A stretch of DNA of 64,000 bases. Source: Puniceicoccaceae bacterium. GTDB lineage: Bacteria; Verrucomicrobiota; Verrucomicrobiia; Opitutales; Coraliomargaritaceae. The stretch's first letter is position 1. Every line of letters starts with the position of its first letter. Location of the stretch: positions 1 to 64,000 of the forward strand of contig PBYS01000082.1 of NCBI GenBank assembly GCA_002729725.1, read 5' to 3'. Of this stretch, positions 37,121 to 43,210 are shown one piece after another. The notes under the pieces are model-generated. The model saw only the letters and a program-made list of their open reading frames with translations. It did no database searches and was not told the origin of the DNA. A program made the translations under genes and the position numbers.

Positions 37121-37633
37121 ATGCAGCAGCATCGCGCTTTAATACTCCGTAGTAATCGTTTTTTAGGTTCAGCTCTCGTCGACAAGGGGTTGGTTTCTTC
37201 GGGGGACCTAGAGGAAGCGAACGGCAAGTTCATGGAGGCGATTCAGGCCGCTGACTTGAAGCGTGCATCGATCCTATCAACTTTGCTGTTCGATCTGAAG
37301 AAGCTGGAAGAGTCGAAACTATTAGATCACTTAGTGGAAGAGGAGAAGTTGGGCTTGATTGATTTGAATCATATCGAGCTACAGTCCTTGCGCCCGATGA
37401 AGGTCGACTTACCGTTATGTTGGGCCTCGTCGACGGTTCCATTTGACCATGTCGAAGGCACTTACATGTTGGCTTCATGCTACTATATGAGTGCGCCCGT
37501 AGTTAAATATTGGGAAGAGGCGCTCGACGGGCGAGTGCTTTGGTACGGCACGTCAATGTCGTCACTGAGTCGTGCCTTGGAGCGCATAGAGGAAGTTCAC
37601 GAAGCCGAAGATGCTGCCGAAGAGGAATCGTAA
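37121..37633 (+). CDS. Stand-alone MshEN/T2SSE N-terminal-domain-like protein
   Basis: Encodes 170 residues. The pattern FLGSALVDKGLVSSGDLEEA, then LFDLKKLEESKLLDHL and a later LPLCWASSTVPF block, follows the N-terminal domain of GspE/PilB ATPases (T2SSE_N/MshEN). No ATPase domain follows. The Arg of the c-di-GMP-binding RLG motifs is not clearly kept (FLG and ILS here), so nucleotide binding is doubtful. The C-terminus is acidic. The gene starts a codirectional series with two dead NtrC-like genes and a complete PilB gene, so it may regulate or dock to the pilus/secretion ATPase. Confidence 0.65.
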   Translation: MQQHRALILRSNRFLGSALVDKGLVSSGDLEEANGKFMEAIQAADLKRASILSTLLFDLKKLEESKLLDHLVEEEKLGLIDLNHIELQSLRPMKVDLPLCWASSTVPFDHVEGTYMLASCYYMSAPVVKYWEEALDGRVLWYGTSMSSLSRALERIEEVHEAEDAAEEES

Positions 37634-37666: not shown

Positions 37667-38965
37667 ATGGCATACAGCGTTTTAATTCTAGATGACGATG
37701 TAGACTTTAACAGTCTGCTCACAGATATTTTCGAACAAGCCGATTACATCGTGACTTCTATCACCGATCCCATCGAGGCGGTTGAAGTCTTTCGTGAAAC
37801 GGAGTACGATCTTGTGGTGACCGACCATAAAATGCCAGATATGACGGGGGCCGAGTTCATGAAGGTGATCAAGGAGGTGAAGCCTGAAGTGCCTGTCATT
37901 ATGGTATCAGGCTATTTAGAAAATGATACGATTCGTGAGTTGATCAGTGAAGGTGTCGGCGGCGTGTTTTTGAAGCCGCTCAATATTTTTTCTTTAATGG
38001 AGCGAACTGCCGAGTTAATTGAAGAGGCGAAGAAAATCGAGAAGGCCCCCGCGCATGCGGACGTCGTTGACGATGCGGGGGATGCTGGAGCTAAGTTTGG
38101 CTTCTCGTTTCGTTCATACCCCTGCAAATCAGGTGCGTCAGCCTCTTTTGCTGAGCGTTTGTATAGCTTGCGTAATTTTAAATCTACCCTGTCTCTGATT
38201 GGGGAGCCTGGTATGCACTACCGCAGTATTTGTGAAGATATTCGTGGTTTTTACGAAAGTCATGAAGAACATTTCATCTACCTCAGTGCCGGCTCCTTTG
38301 ATGAGCAGCAAGCGTTGTCGTTGATCGAAGCTGCCAAGGAGCAGGGTGCCGAGCGCGTGACATGTGTGCTGCTGGAGCTGGAGACTATGGATGTGGCGCA
38401 AAAAAAGCTGGCGACTGCACTGGCTAAGCATGAAGGCCCCTTTGATGTGTTTGACGTGGTTCTACGAACGATTTTTTGCGTGAGTGGGGATTTGGATTCT
38501 CTTTTCGACGAAGGTCTGATCGATGAAAATTTATACATTTTGATGGGAACTGCTGAGGTGCAGGTGCCGCCTTTGCGCGAGTGTAATGTCGATGTCGGGG
38601 TGATGGCACAACAACTGGTTGTTGAAGTCGCTCGCGAGGCTTCCTTGGCGGCGGTTCCTCGGTTTGAACGTTCGGCGCGCGATTTGTTTCGTCAGCATTC
38701 CTGGGAACGTAACTATGAGGAGTTACGCGTGACTGTGCGTAAGATTGTTGAAGATAATCCGGGTGATGTGATTACACACGCTGCGGTAAAATCGGCCCTT
38801 CGGGTGAGTTCAGGAGCTTCGCCACGCACGCTCTATGAGTCGCACCTTTCCAGTCAACAGGTCGACTATTTACGTGCGGCAGCTGTCTTGTTTGGTGGAG
38901 ATCAGAGTCGGGCGGCTAGCTTTTGGGGGACCGACGTGACCACTATCGAGGCAAAGATGAAATAG
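37667..38965 (+). CDS. REC-AAA-Fis protein with erased ATPase motifs (pseudo-NtrC 1)
   Basis: A 432-residue protein with NtrC domain order. The receiver (1-122) looks intact: acidic pocket Asp9-11, phosphoacceptor Asp53 in VVTDHKMP, VSG and the LKPL Lys. The AAA region keeps its frame, with LSLIGEPGMHYRSICEDI at Walker A and the block DLDSLFDEGLIDENLYILMG...VPPLRECNVDV matching FREDLYYRL...LPPLRERxEDI. It has no GKE/GKS, no Walker B DE and no GAFTGA. The C-terminus (SSQQVDYLRAAAVLFGG...) resembles a Fis-type helix-turn-helix. It probably transmits a phosphorylation signal without ATP hydrolysis. The next gene, 43 bases downstream, is a paralogue. Confidence 0.75.
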   Translation: MAYSVLILDDDVDFNSLLTDIFEQADYIVTSITDPIEAVEVFRETEYDLVVTDHKMPDMTGAEFMKVIKEVKPEVPVIMVSGYLENDTIRELISEGVGGVFLKPLNIFSLMERTAELIEEAKKIEKAPAHADVVDDAGDAGAKFGFSFRSYPCKSGASASFAERLYSLRNFKSTLSLIGEPGMHYRSICEDIRGFYESHEEHFIYLSAGSFDEQQALSLIEAAKEQGAERVTCVLLELETMDVAQKKLATALAKHEGPFDVFDVVLRTIFCVSGDLDSLFDEGLIDENLYILMGTAEVQVPPLRECNVDVGVMAQQLVVEVAREASLAAVPRFERSARDLFRQHSWERNYEELRVTVRKIVEDNPGDVITHAAVKSALRVSSGASPRTLYESHLSSQQVDYLRAAAVLFGGDQSRAASFWGTDVTTIEAKMK

Positions 38966-39008
38966 TTAAATGCTGCTTTTTTAGGGGAATATAGAAAAGA
39001 TATATTAT

Positions 39009-40325
39009 ATGGCCGGACGAATATTAGTTTTAGACGACGAAGAGAACTACGCAGAGATGCTCCAGGATTTACTTCGGGAGAATAATTATCGCGTGGATAT
39101 GGCTACTCGTCCAGAGCGGGCGATTACACAGTTGGAAGAGATACCCTACGATCTCGTGATTTCCGATTATAAGATGCCTGTTATGGATGGTGCCGACTTC
39201 TTGAAAAAAGCTCGGGAGTTGTATCCGAACCTGCCATTCATCCTGGTCTCTGGGCTGATGAATACACCCGAGCTGGTCAAGGTGGCGAATATGAGTGTGA
39301 CGCTCGTGATGGAGAAGCCACTAGATACGGGAGCATTTCTACAGCATGTCGCGCGTTTCTCGGATCCAATGACAGATCTGGAAAAGGAGCAATGTGCGCA
39401 AGAGGGGCAAGCTGCTGCCGCAGAAGCGATTGCACTGAGTTTTCCTGAGGAACCGCGCTTTTTTAGTGCAAGTAATTTCTTGGCAAATCGCTTCTTACAA
39501 AGCGCATGGGGCATTGCCAAGGAAGGGGCCGAGCTCTATATATTAGAGCCACGCGGCGGTGATGCGGAGCTTGCGATTAAGGATTTATCGCGCTGGCGCG
39601 GAAATGGTGATATGCCAGTTGATCTCTTTGATTTACCTCTATTGGTCTCGGAGGCTGTTTCGAAGTTGCGAACTGTGCTTTCTGATTTTGAAAAGAGTCG
39701 GGTGGTGGGAGTACGCTTGAATTCGGTCGATGATATGCCGCGAGCGCATAAATTGACTGAAGCTGCGCAGCGAGAAGTCGAAGGCTCAGAGTCCTTATTG
39801 ATCATTTATATCGTTAGCGAAGATACGACTGAGACAATACGCACAGCCTTTGAAGACGCGACTGGTGAGGCGGGGGTTGTGCTGCCTAGCATTAGTTTGC
39901 GTCCAAGTGATTTAGCGGTTTATGCACGGCGAGTCGCTCGTATCGCTGCGGAGCGCGCGGGGCGTAGTTTATGCGGTGAATTTACACCCGAGGCAGTGTA
40001 TGGTTTACTCTCCTATGAGTGGCCTGGTAATTATAAACAAATTCAGGAAGTAGTGAATGGTGCGGTTCATACGAGTGCCGATGAGTCGATCACGCTTGAC
40101 GTGTTGAACGAGGTAATTGGAGCGCCTATTACTCTAGTTCCTGCGGAGGCTCGCATGCACACTTTGATGAAAGCAGAACAACAGCGCTACCTGCAAGAGC
40201 AGTTGCTGCAAGGCGGATTGACCGCCGCTGAACTCGCAAAAAAGCTAGAGCTCGACCCTTCAGTTCAAACTAAAGCCGACTTAAAGAACATGCCGCTGCT
40301 CCGGGAAGAGCTCGGCCGGATTTGA
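39009..40325 (+). CDS. REC-AAA-Fis protein with erased ATPase motifs (pseudo-NtrC 2)
   Basis: A 438-residue paralogue of the preceding protein. The receiver is intact (Asp9/Asp10/Glu11 pocket, Asp53 in VISDYKMP, LVSG, EKPLD). The AAA-like part has GAELYILEPRGGDAELAI at the Walker A position, no Walker B and no GAFTGA. Its lid region is well kept: FTPEAVYGLLSYEWPGNYKQIQEVVNGAV, where enhancer-binding proteins have WPGNVRELxN. The Fis-like C-terminus (EQQRYLQEQLLQGGLTAAELAKKL) is present. The pilB-type gene starts 43 bases downstream, so the set is likely one transcription unit. Confidence 0.75.
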   Translation: MAGRILVLDDEENYAEMLQDLLRENNYRVDMATRPERAITQLEEIPYDLVISDYKMPVMDGADFLKKARELYPNLPFILVSGLMNTPELVKVANMSVTLVMEKPLDTGAFLQHVARFSDPMTDLEKEQCAQEGQAAAAEAIALSFPEEPRFFSASNFLANRFLQSAWGIAKEGAELYILEPRGGDAELAIKDLSRWRGNGDMPVDLFDLPLLVSEAVSKLRTVLSDFEKSRVVGVRLNSVDDMPRAHKLTEAAQREVEGSESLLIIYIVSEDTTETIRTAFEDATGEAGVVLPSISLRPSDLAVYARRVARIAAERAGRSLCGEFTPEAVYGLLSYEWPGNYKQIQEVVNGAVHTSADESITLDVLNEVIGAPITLVPAEARMHTLMKAEQQRYLQEQLLQGGLTAAELAKKLELDPSVQTKADLKNMPLLREELGRI

Positions 40326-40368: not shown

Positions 40369-42108
40369 ATGGCTCTTGCTCGTATCCAAACTGCTATTCT
40401 GGACAATTTACTCCAGATGGGTCATTTGACCGAGGCGCAATTTAAGAATATCATCGAGACAGATGAGGAGATGTCAGGCGATGCGGTCGAGGCCTTACTG
40501 GCAACCGAGTATAGAATTACGCAGCATCAATTGTTATTCGCGAAAAGCCGCGCTTTTGATCTGACGCCAATTAATATCAAGCGTTGCATGGTCACGGAGA
40601 CCACTTACTCCAAGCTGGATAAGGATTTTTGCCAGACGCATAAAGTTCTGCCGCTAGGCTTTGCGGGCGACTATATTATCATCGCACTGAGTAACCCATT
40701 TGATCTGCATGTGACTAGTAAGGTGCATGAGATTTCGGGCATGAAAGTGTCTGTTTTGTTGGGGCTGCAGTCCGAGATCGAGAAACTTGTTGATGATAAA
40801 GATGATCAGCGTCAGGCAGTTGGCTTTGGTGATGTGGTTGAGGCACTTGGTGCGGACTATGAGAGCGAGGAAGAGATCGACGAGGATGATTTTTCTGATG
40901 AAGAGTCGGCGCCGATTATCAAGCTGGCAAACCGGATTGTAGAGGAGGCGTATTTCGCGGGTGCCAGTGATATTCACATCGAGCCATTTGAAAAAGAAAC
41001 TCGCGTGCGCGTGCGCGTTGATGGCGTCTTGCAAAATCGTTTGACGATACCAACTGCGGCCTCGGGAGCATTGTTGGCACGCCTAAAAGTGATGGCACAA
41101 TTGGATATTGCGGAGAAGCGCATGCCCCAGGATGGACGTATTATTTTTAAGCAATACAATAAGCGTGGGGTCGATATCGACTTGCGTGTGTCGACCGCAC
41201 CGTTGAATCACGGCGAGGGGATGGTCATGCGTATCTTAGATAAGCAGAAGAGTACCTTGCCTCTCCCAGCGCTTGGCTTTTCTGAGCGCAACCTCGGGCT
41301 CTATCGTGAGCTGATTCAGCGGCCTTATGGCATGATCTTGCACTGTGGACCGACTGGTTCGGGTAAATCGATGACGCTCTATTCCGCGCTCAACGAGATC
41401 AATACAGCTGATATTTGTATTCGCACGGCGGAGGACCCGATCGAGTATACCTTGCCTGGACTCTTGCAAATGCAGATGCAGCGCAAAATCGGGCTCACAT
41501 TTGCGTCTGCCCTGCGCGCCTTTTTGCGTCAGGATCCGGATGTGATTCTGGTGGGGGAAATTCGTGACCGCGAAACTGCTGGCATCGCCGTGGAAGCTGC
41601 GCTTACGGGGCACTTACTCTTTAGCACGCTTCACACTAATGATGCACCCACGACTGTCTCGCGACTCACTGAGATGGGGATCGAGCCTTTTATGATTTCG
41701 GCTTCGTTGATTTGTGTGTGTGCCCAGCGTCTGATGCGCCGCGTCTGTAAATCATGTAAAAAGAACTACATGCCAGAAGGAAACGAGGCCGAGATTATTC
41801 AGCGCGCGTTGAGTTGGACGGGGAAGGTGCCTGGCTTGAGCGAAGACGGTTGCCCCAGTTGCGGTGGTAATGGCTACAAAGGCCGGGTGGGTATTCATGA
41901 ATTGATGGCGACCAGCGAAGACTTGATTAAAGCGATTAATGCGGGGGAGGAGGCGGCCGTGATTAAGCGTATCGCCATGCGCACCGGCATGATGACCTTG
42001 CACCAAGACAGTATGCTCAAGGTCAAAGAGGGCCTCACGACTATGGAAGAATCGCTTGGCACCGTGCCGCCGGATATGGAGGAATATGAGGTCGATCACA
42101 ACCTATAG
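40369..42108 (+). CDS. PilB/GspE-family assembly ATPase
   Basis: Encodes 579 residues with the complete type IV pilus/type II secretion ATPase layout. An N-terminal MshEN-like domain (1-145) and an acidic linker precede the NTPase, which has Walker A GPTGSGKS at 327-334, an Asp box ([16 protein letters not shown]), [15 protein letters not shown] (Walker B and catalytic Glu) and [12 protein letters not shown]. The C4 zinc site is present: CKSCKKN plus [12 protein letters not shown]. It powers pilin or pseudopilin assembly at the inner membrane. No pilC, pilT or pilM lies nearby; instead its neighbours are the stand-alone MshEN protein and the dead NtrC-like proteins. Confidence 0.92.
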
Positions 42109-42200: not shown

Positions 42201-42698
42201 ATGGAATGGCAATTTAAAACTATCGCGCGCAAATCGACTCTGAGTGCTGAGGCCTTCAATCCGGGCGATCAAGTGGTCTGTTTGATTTATAAGGACGACG
42301 TCGCCGGCGAGTTGGGGCGTGCGGATCTACGCCCAGACGAAGTAGAGCTCTTTGAGTTGCCCGGTGAGGTGCTGGGGCGCTGGGTTCGGGTGGTTAAAGA
42401 GCCCGACGAAGAGAGCAGCACTGCCCGCGAGACCATGGCCTCGGCTGAGGACTTTTTTTTCTCACTCTTTGAGCATGAGCAGCCTGAGGCACGGGAGGAG
42501 TCGGACATGTTAAAGCATTTACTCTCGCTTATGTTGGAGCGTAAGCGTGTGCTACGTGCTCTCGGTACGCGCCGGACTGCGGGCGAGCAGACTTATCTGC
42601 ACGTGAAATCCAAGCGTCAGATGCAGGTGCCGATTGTCGATATTTCTACGAAACTAATGCTCAAAATTGAAGACACCATTGGTGATATTATTCTTTAA
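42201..42698 (+). CDS. Conserved-looking protein of unknown function
   Basis: Encodes 165 residues with no signal peptide or membrane segment. The N-terminal half reads like a small beta domain (ARKSTLSAEAFNPGDQVVCLIY), which may bind a nucleotide or ligand. The middle is strongly acidic, and the C-terminal half is a helix with many charged residues (LLSLMLERKRVLRALG). I do not recognise the family. It is codirectional with pilB (93 bases upstream) and 14 bases ahead of a lipoprotein gene. Confidence 0.6.
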   Translation: MEWQFKTIARKSTLSAEAFNPGDQVVCLIYKDDVAGELGRADLRPDEVELFELPGEVLGRWVRVVKEPDEESSTARETMASAEDFFFSLFEHEQPEAREESDMLKHLLSLMLERKRVLRALGTRRTAGEQTYLHVKSKRQMQVPIVDISTKLMLKIEDTIGDIIL

Positions 42699-42712
42699 CT
42701 CATACACAACAC

Positions 42713-43210
42713 ATGCGCCCAATTGCCCTCTCATTCCTTCTTGTATTCACTAGTCTCGCTTTTTTCGTTGGCTGTAAAAAAGATAAGCTCGAAAATTTAT
42801 ACATTCCACGCCTGATGGTTGAGAGCCGCGGGGTGAATTTTAATTCGATGGGCGGGGATACTGCGGTGCTACCCAAGAGTGGCACCACGATCAATATTCA
42901 GGCGGATCCCATCGTGACTGAGTTTGACATTCGCAATGTCGAACTGGTCAAAGTCGACCGCGGCATGGCGCTGCTGTTACAGGTCGATGGGAAAGGTGCA
43001 CGTGATCTGTATCGAGCTTCTGTGACGAATATGGGTGGACGTATTGTGTTGATGGTGAACGGAAACGCCATCGGAGCACGTCGTATCGATGGCGCAATCC
43101 CGGATGGCAATTTGTACACTTTTGTCGAGGTGGACGACGCTGAGTTGGAACAGCTGGTACTGGATTTGAGACGGAGCCTTAGCGAATTGCAGGCAAAGAA
43201 GAGCTGGTAG
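42713..43210 (+). CDS. Lipoprotein with a SecDF P1-head-like region
   Basis: Encodes 165 residues. The signal peptide ends in a lipobox-like FVGC (Cys21), followed by Lys-Lys-Asp. The mature part from about residue 85 (GMALLLQVDGKGARDLY...NMGGRIVLMVNGNAIGARRIDGAI) resembles the P1 head subdomain of SecD, which has a similar order of strands and the VxGxxI..A turn. The resemblance is by eye only. It would be anchored on the periplasmic side of a membrane. It lies between an unknown gene and an M23 peptidase gene, all in one direction. Confidence 0.6.
   Translation: MRPIALSFLLVFTSLAFFVGCKKDKLENLYIPRLMVESRGVNFNSMGGDTAVLPKSGTTINIQADPIVTEFDIRNVELVKVDRGMALLLQVDGKGARDLYRASVTNMGGRIVLMVNGNAIGARRIDGAIPDGNLYTFVEVDDAELEQLVLDLRRSLSELQAKKSW

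Follow-up and report, generated by a model that had tools for sequence, protein, structure and literature searches.

Several activators that lack the GAFTGA motif, namely TyrR, HupR, VpsR and the NtrC proteins of R. capsulatus and Caulobacter, are still transcription factors (PMC3162934, PMC10274813). Type IV pilus assembly, for its part, is controlled by signalling proteins of several kinds. In Xanthomonas, PilB is bound by the receiver-only protein EmvR, which cuts the ATPase activity of PilB by about 40% in a non-competitive manner, and the substitution D59A abolishes this effect (PMC11973254). Pilus extension is under the antagonistic control of PilG and PilH (PMC10519157), and a degenerate signalling enzyme, FimX, acts as a regulator of PilB (PMC11656802). 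The c-di-GMP motif of the MshEN domain has been defined as RLGxxL (PMC5013675).

In the present study, we analysed two adjacent genes, RA1 and RA2, that lie ahead of a pilB-type gene in the window (the whole 64,000-nucleotide stretch of DNA analysed), which belongs to a source genome of 4.7 Mb. We think it fairly probable that their products are response regulators descended from sigma-54 activators that act post-translationally, as phosphorylation-controlled adaptors on the type IV pilus machine, with PilB as a putative binding partner. The first-pass annotation, made from the letters of the window, knew of no described system with this architecture, and the open-access papers searched likewise yielded no description, though absence is not thereby proven.

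Gene order and features of the locus

On the + strand, the genes for a 170-aa protein, RA1, RA2 and the pilB-type ATPase follow one another with intergenic gaps of 33, 43 and 43 bp. The first-pass annotation had the coordinates, the frames and the motifs of RA1 and RA2 right, with VPPLREC in RA1, WPGN in RA2 and Asp53 in both. The features of the cluster are as follows.

37121..37633, + strand: 170-aa stand-alone protein of the GSPII/MshEN type, a homologue of the PilB N-terminal domain (orthologue profile against the PDB)
37667..38965, + strand: RA1, 432 aa, receiver, pseudo-AAA, lid and decayed HTH (Pfam, alignment, AlphaFold)
37667..38020, + strand: RA1 receiver domain, phospho-Asp53 codon 37823-37825 (PF00072, 3.4e-23)
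38102..38575, + strand: RA1 pseudo-AAA core (alignment with activators)
38201-38224, + strand: RA1 P-loop remnant GEPGMHYR, Tyr in place of Lys (alignment)
38576..38812, + strand: RA1 AAA lid, AAA_lid_14 (Pfam)
38822..38962, + strand: RA1 decayed Fis-type HTH (HTH_8 match absent in 14 members; helix charge)
39009..40325, + strand: RA2, 438 aa, receiver, pseudo-AAA, lid and decayed HTH (Pfam, alignment, AlphaFold)
39009..39362, + strand: RA2 receiver domain, phospho-Asp53 codon 39165-39167 (D10, D53, S81 and K103 in 33/33; dN/dS 0.01-0.07)
39441..39899, + strand: RA2 pseudo-AAA core, decayed beyond that of RA1 (Walker A/B and GAFTGA absent in 33/33; dN/dS 0.31-0.50)
39900..40118, + strand: RA2 AAA lid, in which R298 and D301 (left over from the LRERxxD block) and the W338 of WPGN are invariant (Pfam, alignment)
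40143..40322, + strand: RA2 C-terminal helices, decayed HTH (alignment, AlphaFold, helix charge)
40369..42108, + strand: pilB-type assembly ATPase, Walker A intact, MshEN-like N-terminus, starting 43 bp past RA2 (TIGR02538, PF00437, MshEN)

The pilB-type ATPase matched TIGR02538 at 1e-169 with 565.7 bits, under the model's equivalog cut-off of 675.65, and matched PF00437 at 6.5e-123 and MshEN at 1e-10. Five open frames of 580-618 aa in the source genome encode full-length ATPases of the PilB/GspE type, and several PilT-like ones are present as well. On the 3' side of pilB (42201-43210) lie two small genes of 165 aa each without a clear family, the second of which resembles a lipoprotein. Promoter and terminator scans across the cluster gave nothing decisive.

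A profile of 18 orthologues of the 170-aa protein, searched against the PDB, gave PilB, PilF or MshE in 7/7 matches up to E = 1, the best at 3.5e-4, and Pfam MshEN gave weak matches in two relatives. The hhalign comparison with the local PilB N-termini (probability 4.5%, E 0.009) was not usable, and the MshEN/GSPII homology thus rests on the search against solved structures. The protein belongs to the same fold family as the MshEN/GSPII domain, the c-di-GMP receptor of MshE and PilF, but, unlike that domain in MshE and PilF, it is not fused to an ATPase and lacks the canonical c-di-GMP motif: RLGxxL..G..L, which occurs in two copies, was absent from the 170-aa protein, and canonical RLGxxL was absent from the PilB N-terminus too. 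The 170-aa gene preceded RA1 in 34/50 RA1 loci. It also lay directly 5' of pilB at loci without an adjacent RA gene (L206, L207, L208, L210, L211, L212, L219 and L223), suggesting that the N-domain gene and pilB are the core pair, which the regulators joined.

Conserved receivers and degenerate bodies of RA1 and RA2

The two proteins were compared in an alignment of 46 RA1 and 33 RA2 proteins from Opitutales-type Verrucomicrobiota, together with the intact activators of the source genome. Pfam recognised a receiver domain in both (E = 3e-23 in RA1 and 2e-18 in RA2), and both possess the acidic pair, phospho-Asp, Ser/Thr and Lys of a phospho-receiver. These residues (DD, D53, S81 and K103) were essentially invariant: in RA1, D53 was found in 45/46 proteins, with Glu in L072 as the exception, and S81 and K103 each in 46/46, while in RA2 D10, D53, S81 and K103 were each present in 33/33. 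The intact receivers noted in the first-pass annotation are thereby supported. In one family (L074, L075, L078 and L088), an extra gene of about 122 aa for a single receiver domain lies 5' of RA1; its product shows 42-47% identity to the RA1 receiver, resembling a duplication of the receiver alone.

Pfam Sigma54_activ_2 scored 27.8 bits in RA1, above the cut-off of 25, and did not match the RA2 of the window; AAA_lid_14, with a cut-off of 27, scored 31.9 bits in RA2 and 25.0, just under that value, in RA1. At E<=0.01 across the family, Sigma54_activ_2 was detected in 14/14 RA1 and in none of the 14 RA2 members tested, and AAA_lid_14 in 14/14 of each. The AlphaFold models, of good confidence with mean pLDDT of 82 (RA1) and 83 (RA2), matched full-length NtrC1, NtrC4 and NtrX over approximately 350 residues in RA1 and 320 in RA2, the greater part of each protein, which indicates that the adaptor fold has been preserved; the large rmsd of these full-length matches probably reflects a different orientation of receiver and AAA. 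VpsR was a further structural match of both proteins, and FleQ of RA1. The structure matches and Pfam thus place RA1 and RA2 in the NtrC-class AAA+ fold, and the NtrC-type frame and the descent from sigma-54 activators that had been read from surviving sequence blocks are both supported.

The catalytic motifs of this fold were missing throughout. The Walker A column held Lys in 0/46 RA1 and 0/33 RA2 proteins, the column of the Walker B Asp was mostly Leu in RA1 and Arg in RA2, and GAFTGA was absent from all aligned members, so that the losses seen in the window recur across the family and no aligned RA1 or RA2 relative has intact Walker motifs. In nearly all intact activators, 71 residues separate Walker A and Walker B, whereas RA1 and many RA2 proteins have about 57, approximately 14 fewer. 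The REDLYYRL block reads DENLYILM in the RA1 of the window, with both arginines replaced, and is unrecognisable in most RA2 proteins; the arginine finger is absent from RA1 and RA2. Judged from these positions, both ATPase function and sigma-54 contact are gone.

In close pairs, dN/dS was 0.01-0.12 for the receivers, indicating strong purifying selection, 0.09-0.34 for the pseudo-AAA body of RA1 and 0.31-0.50 for that of RA2, all below 1, compared with 0.02-0.07 for PilB. The values below 1 suggest that the body is still selected. Outside the receiver, E297 and P301 are invariant and G182 and D191 nearly invariant in RA1, and W196, R298, D301, W338 and Q391 are invariant in RA2. RA1 and RA2 are thus selected proteins rather than pseudogenes, and an assembly error or a pseudogene is ruled out by the 46 and 33 homologues across the order and by dN/dS below 1. 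It is likewise highly improbable that the proteins are remnants in decay or serve as phosphate sinks with no specific output, since the fast evolution of the RA2 body, with dN/dS up to 0.50, which would suit such a fate, is opposed by the invariant residues of RA2, by retention in many families and by the recurrent gene order described below.

The first-pass annotation also described a Fis-like C-terminus. A remnant is indeed present, and AlphaFold predicts a helical fold there, but it no longer has the marks of a DNA-binding domain: at E<=0.01, Pfam HTH_8 was found in 0/14 RA1 and 0/14 RA2 proteins, though in 5/5 intact activators used as a positive control, and the mean net charge of the recognition helix was -1.1 in RA1 and -1.8 in RA2 against +2.8 in the intact activators. 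DNA binding has thus most likely been lost, as far as helix charge and profile matches indicate. Many distant RA2 homologues share a conserved C-terminal tail resembling LL(F/Y)PELL, possibly a short docking motif. The decay of the HTH is the main argument that sets RA1 and RA2 apart from the known GAFTGA-less transcription factors. If RA1 and RA2 were ATP-independent sigma-70-type factors like VpsR, R. capsulatus NtrC, HupR or TyrR, regulating the pil cluster, they would work as known GAFTGA-less activators do (PMC3162934; PMC10274813), and the presence of VpsR and FleQ among the structural matches of RA1 is in keeping with this. However, an HTH that is undetectable in 14 members of each group, with a recognition helix that is on average acidic to neutral, makes such a role rather unlikely.

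The same structural matches could indicate second-messenger receptors, in which the pseudo-AAA pocket binds c-di-GMP in the style of FleQ or VpsR and is coupled to pilus assembly with the MshEN-type protein. Some RA1 proteins carry FRS at the site of the FleQ LFRS motif, the RA1 of the window has an FRS similarly spaced before the P-loop, and the cluster encodes two GSPII/MshEN relatives. However, the arginine of FRS was present in only 13/46 RA1 proteins, by which a FleQ-type c-di-GMP pocket with the LFRS contact was rejected for RA1, and RLGxxL is missing from both the stand-alone protein and the PilB N-terminus, leaving c-di-GMP reception an improbable function.

Linkage to pilus genes and a third lineage

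RA1 and RA2 are kept in many families of the order, and the arrangement of N-domain protein, RA1, RA2 and pilB recurs with differing outer flanks. A pilB gene lay within 1.5 kb on the 3' side of RA2 in 35/45 loci, with a gap of no more than 64 bp in 29 of these, and the position ahead of a pilB-type gene noticed in the window is thus a real link; RA2 did not adjoin pilB in 10/45 loci, in one of which the contig is not long enough for a decision. In four genomes (L186, L187, L188 and L191), RA1 is located at a separate genomic place and RA2 is still beside pilB, and the separation of the two genes in L193 is probably a contig break only. Among the 177 genomes of the order, RA1 and a full-length PilB orthologue occurred together in 39, RA1 only in 5, PilB only in 22 and neither in 111, in raw counts that ignore kinship and include the PilB of G138, which is cut by the contig end and was added by hand. 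In the sampled genomes of the phylum's other orders, no true RA1 or RA2 was evident among the matches listed, where the best profile scores sank to the level of intact activators.

Two departures from this arrangement were seen. In one family, a gene of about 224 aa without a Pfam match is inserted between RA1 and RA2 (L060:10149-10823, also L062, L063, L064, L067 and L068). In two genomes of one family (L076:7453-8817 and L079:7534-8898), the usual place of RA2 behind RA1 is taken by a complete sigma-54 activator, Walker A and GAFTGA included, which is a separate gene and not RA2, the RA2 of these genomes being located elsewhere, still beside pilB.

The first-pass annotation suggested a phosphorylation-controlled scaffold or an anti-activator. 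As anti-activators, RA1 and RA2 would join the subunits of an intact sigma-54 activator and, once phosphorylated, poison the mixed hexamer. The source genome has RpoN and at least five intact sigma-54 activators, so that the cell does possess the ancestral function, and an intact activator adjoins RA1 in L076 and L079. However, the surfaces of the arginine finger and GAFTGA, which provide the ring interface and the output, have been lost along with the HTH, the divergence from activators is extreme, and the recurrent neighbour is a pilus gene, pilB or pilC, and not an activator. An anti-activator function is thus improbable and the weaker half of that suggestion, and a phosphorylation-controlled scaffold is the better supported half.

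Profile searches of the phylum revealed a third, less decayed receiver-AAA lineage, which belongs to other families of the order and lacks both GAFTGA and Walker B; some members retain the Walker A lysine and some have a truncated HTH. It lay directly 3' of pilC in 13/17 loci (including L091, L092, L093, L174-L180, L183, L200 and L201). Many of its proteins end at or just past the turn preceding the HTH recognition helix, a further point against regulation of the pil cluster by sigma-70-type factors. A large gene beside this lineage was considered as a kinase and proved to be carbamoyl-phosphate synthase. In the tree, the activators formed one group (support 100), as did RA1 (SH-aLRT 93) and RA2 (SH-aLRT 99), with the third lineage between these groups in up to three places. 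A recent tandem duplication as the origin of RA1 and RA2 was not supported, since they form two separate clades, though long branches blur how exactly these join. Taken from sequence comparison, the whole reads as a series of graded loss tied to pilus assembly genes, the exact order of which is not proven given the long branches.

Proposed function and comparison with described systems

Considering the conserved receivers, the degenerate bodies and the pilus gene linkage together, we propose the following mechanism for RA1 and RA2 as adaptors. A histidine kinase encoded elsewhere in the genome would phosphorylate Asp53, as the intact receivers imply, and the phosphorylated receiver may alter how the pseudo-AAA/lid body is shaped or oligomerised; this body would act as a protein-binding adaptor that neither hydrolyses ATP nor binds DNA. 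Its most likely target is the machinery of type IV pilus assembly, that is, PilB, with the N-domain protein of the cluster as a probable partner, because RA1 and RA2 usually sit directly 5' of a pilus-motor gene across the order; the pilC linkage of the third lineage provides a second link to pilus assembly. Phosphorylated RA1 and RA2 may thus dock on PilB, the N-domain protein or both through the pseudo-AAA/lid body and set extension activity, and with two different receivers, pilus extension could be controlled in opposing directions or by degrees, as with EmvR or PilG/PilH. No CheW was found in the source genome, which gives no sign of a Chp array of the PilG/PilH type, so that a chemotaxis route is unlikely and the kinase is probably encoded elsewhere. 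Against this proposal, ten RA2 loci are not beside pilB, five genomes have RA1 without an orthologous full-length PilB, and gene linkage would also fit transcriptional control of the cluster.

At a broader level, an undescribed regulator family may have arisen in which whole sigma-54 activators became phosphorylation-controlled type IV pilus adaptors by graded loss, from activator through the pilC-linked form to RA1 and then to RA2, the latter two acting as a paired PilB switch, with the stages still to be seen in living relatives; the arguments for and against this wider scheme are, in our judgement, evenly balanced. If true, a family of transcription activators has come to regulate a motor directly at the protein level, the pair is a candidate for the control of pilus extension in bacteria without a chemotaxis-type Chp array, and the lineages provide a graded series from an AAA+ machine to a pseudo-enzyme adaptor.

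RA1 and RA2 share the order of receiver, AAA+ core, lid and Fis-type C-terminus, and the fold, with the NtrC-family activators NtrC1, NtrC4, NtrX, ZraR and PilR, but differ from them in lacking Walker A, Walker B, GAFTGA, the arginine finger and a basic recognition helix and in being linked to a pilus motor. The deletion of loop 1 with GAFTGA is shared with VpsR, HupR, R. capsulatus NtrC and TyrR; these stay DNA-binding factors, whereas in RA1 and RA2 the HTH has decayed too. EmvR and the PilG/PilH pair of Pseudomonas are receiver proteins with a non-transcriptional type IV pilus output, as proposed for RA1 and RA2. EmvR, however, is a single-domain regulator, whereas RA1 and RA2 are multi-domain proteins with a pseudo-AAA body, which, to our knowledge, none of EmvR, PilG and PilH carries, and PilG/PilH require ChpA, a kinase of the chemotaxis type, unlike the situation expected in the source genome, where CheW was not found. 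The FimX/PilZ system, in which a degenerate, non-catalytic signalling protein controls PilB, resembles the role proposed for RA1 and RA2, but FimX is built of GGDEF/EAL domains with a receiver that lacks the Asp, whereas the receivers of RA1 and RA2 are intact.
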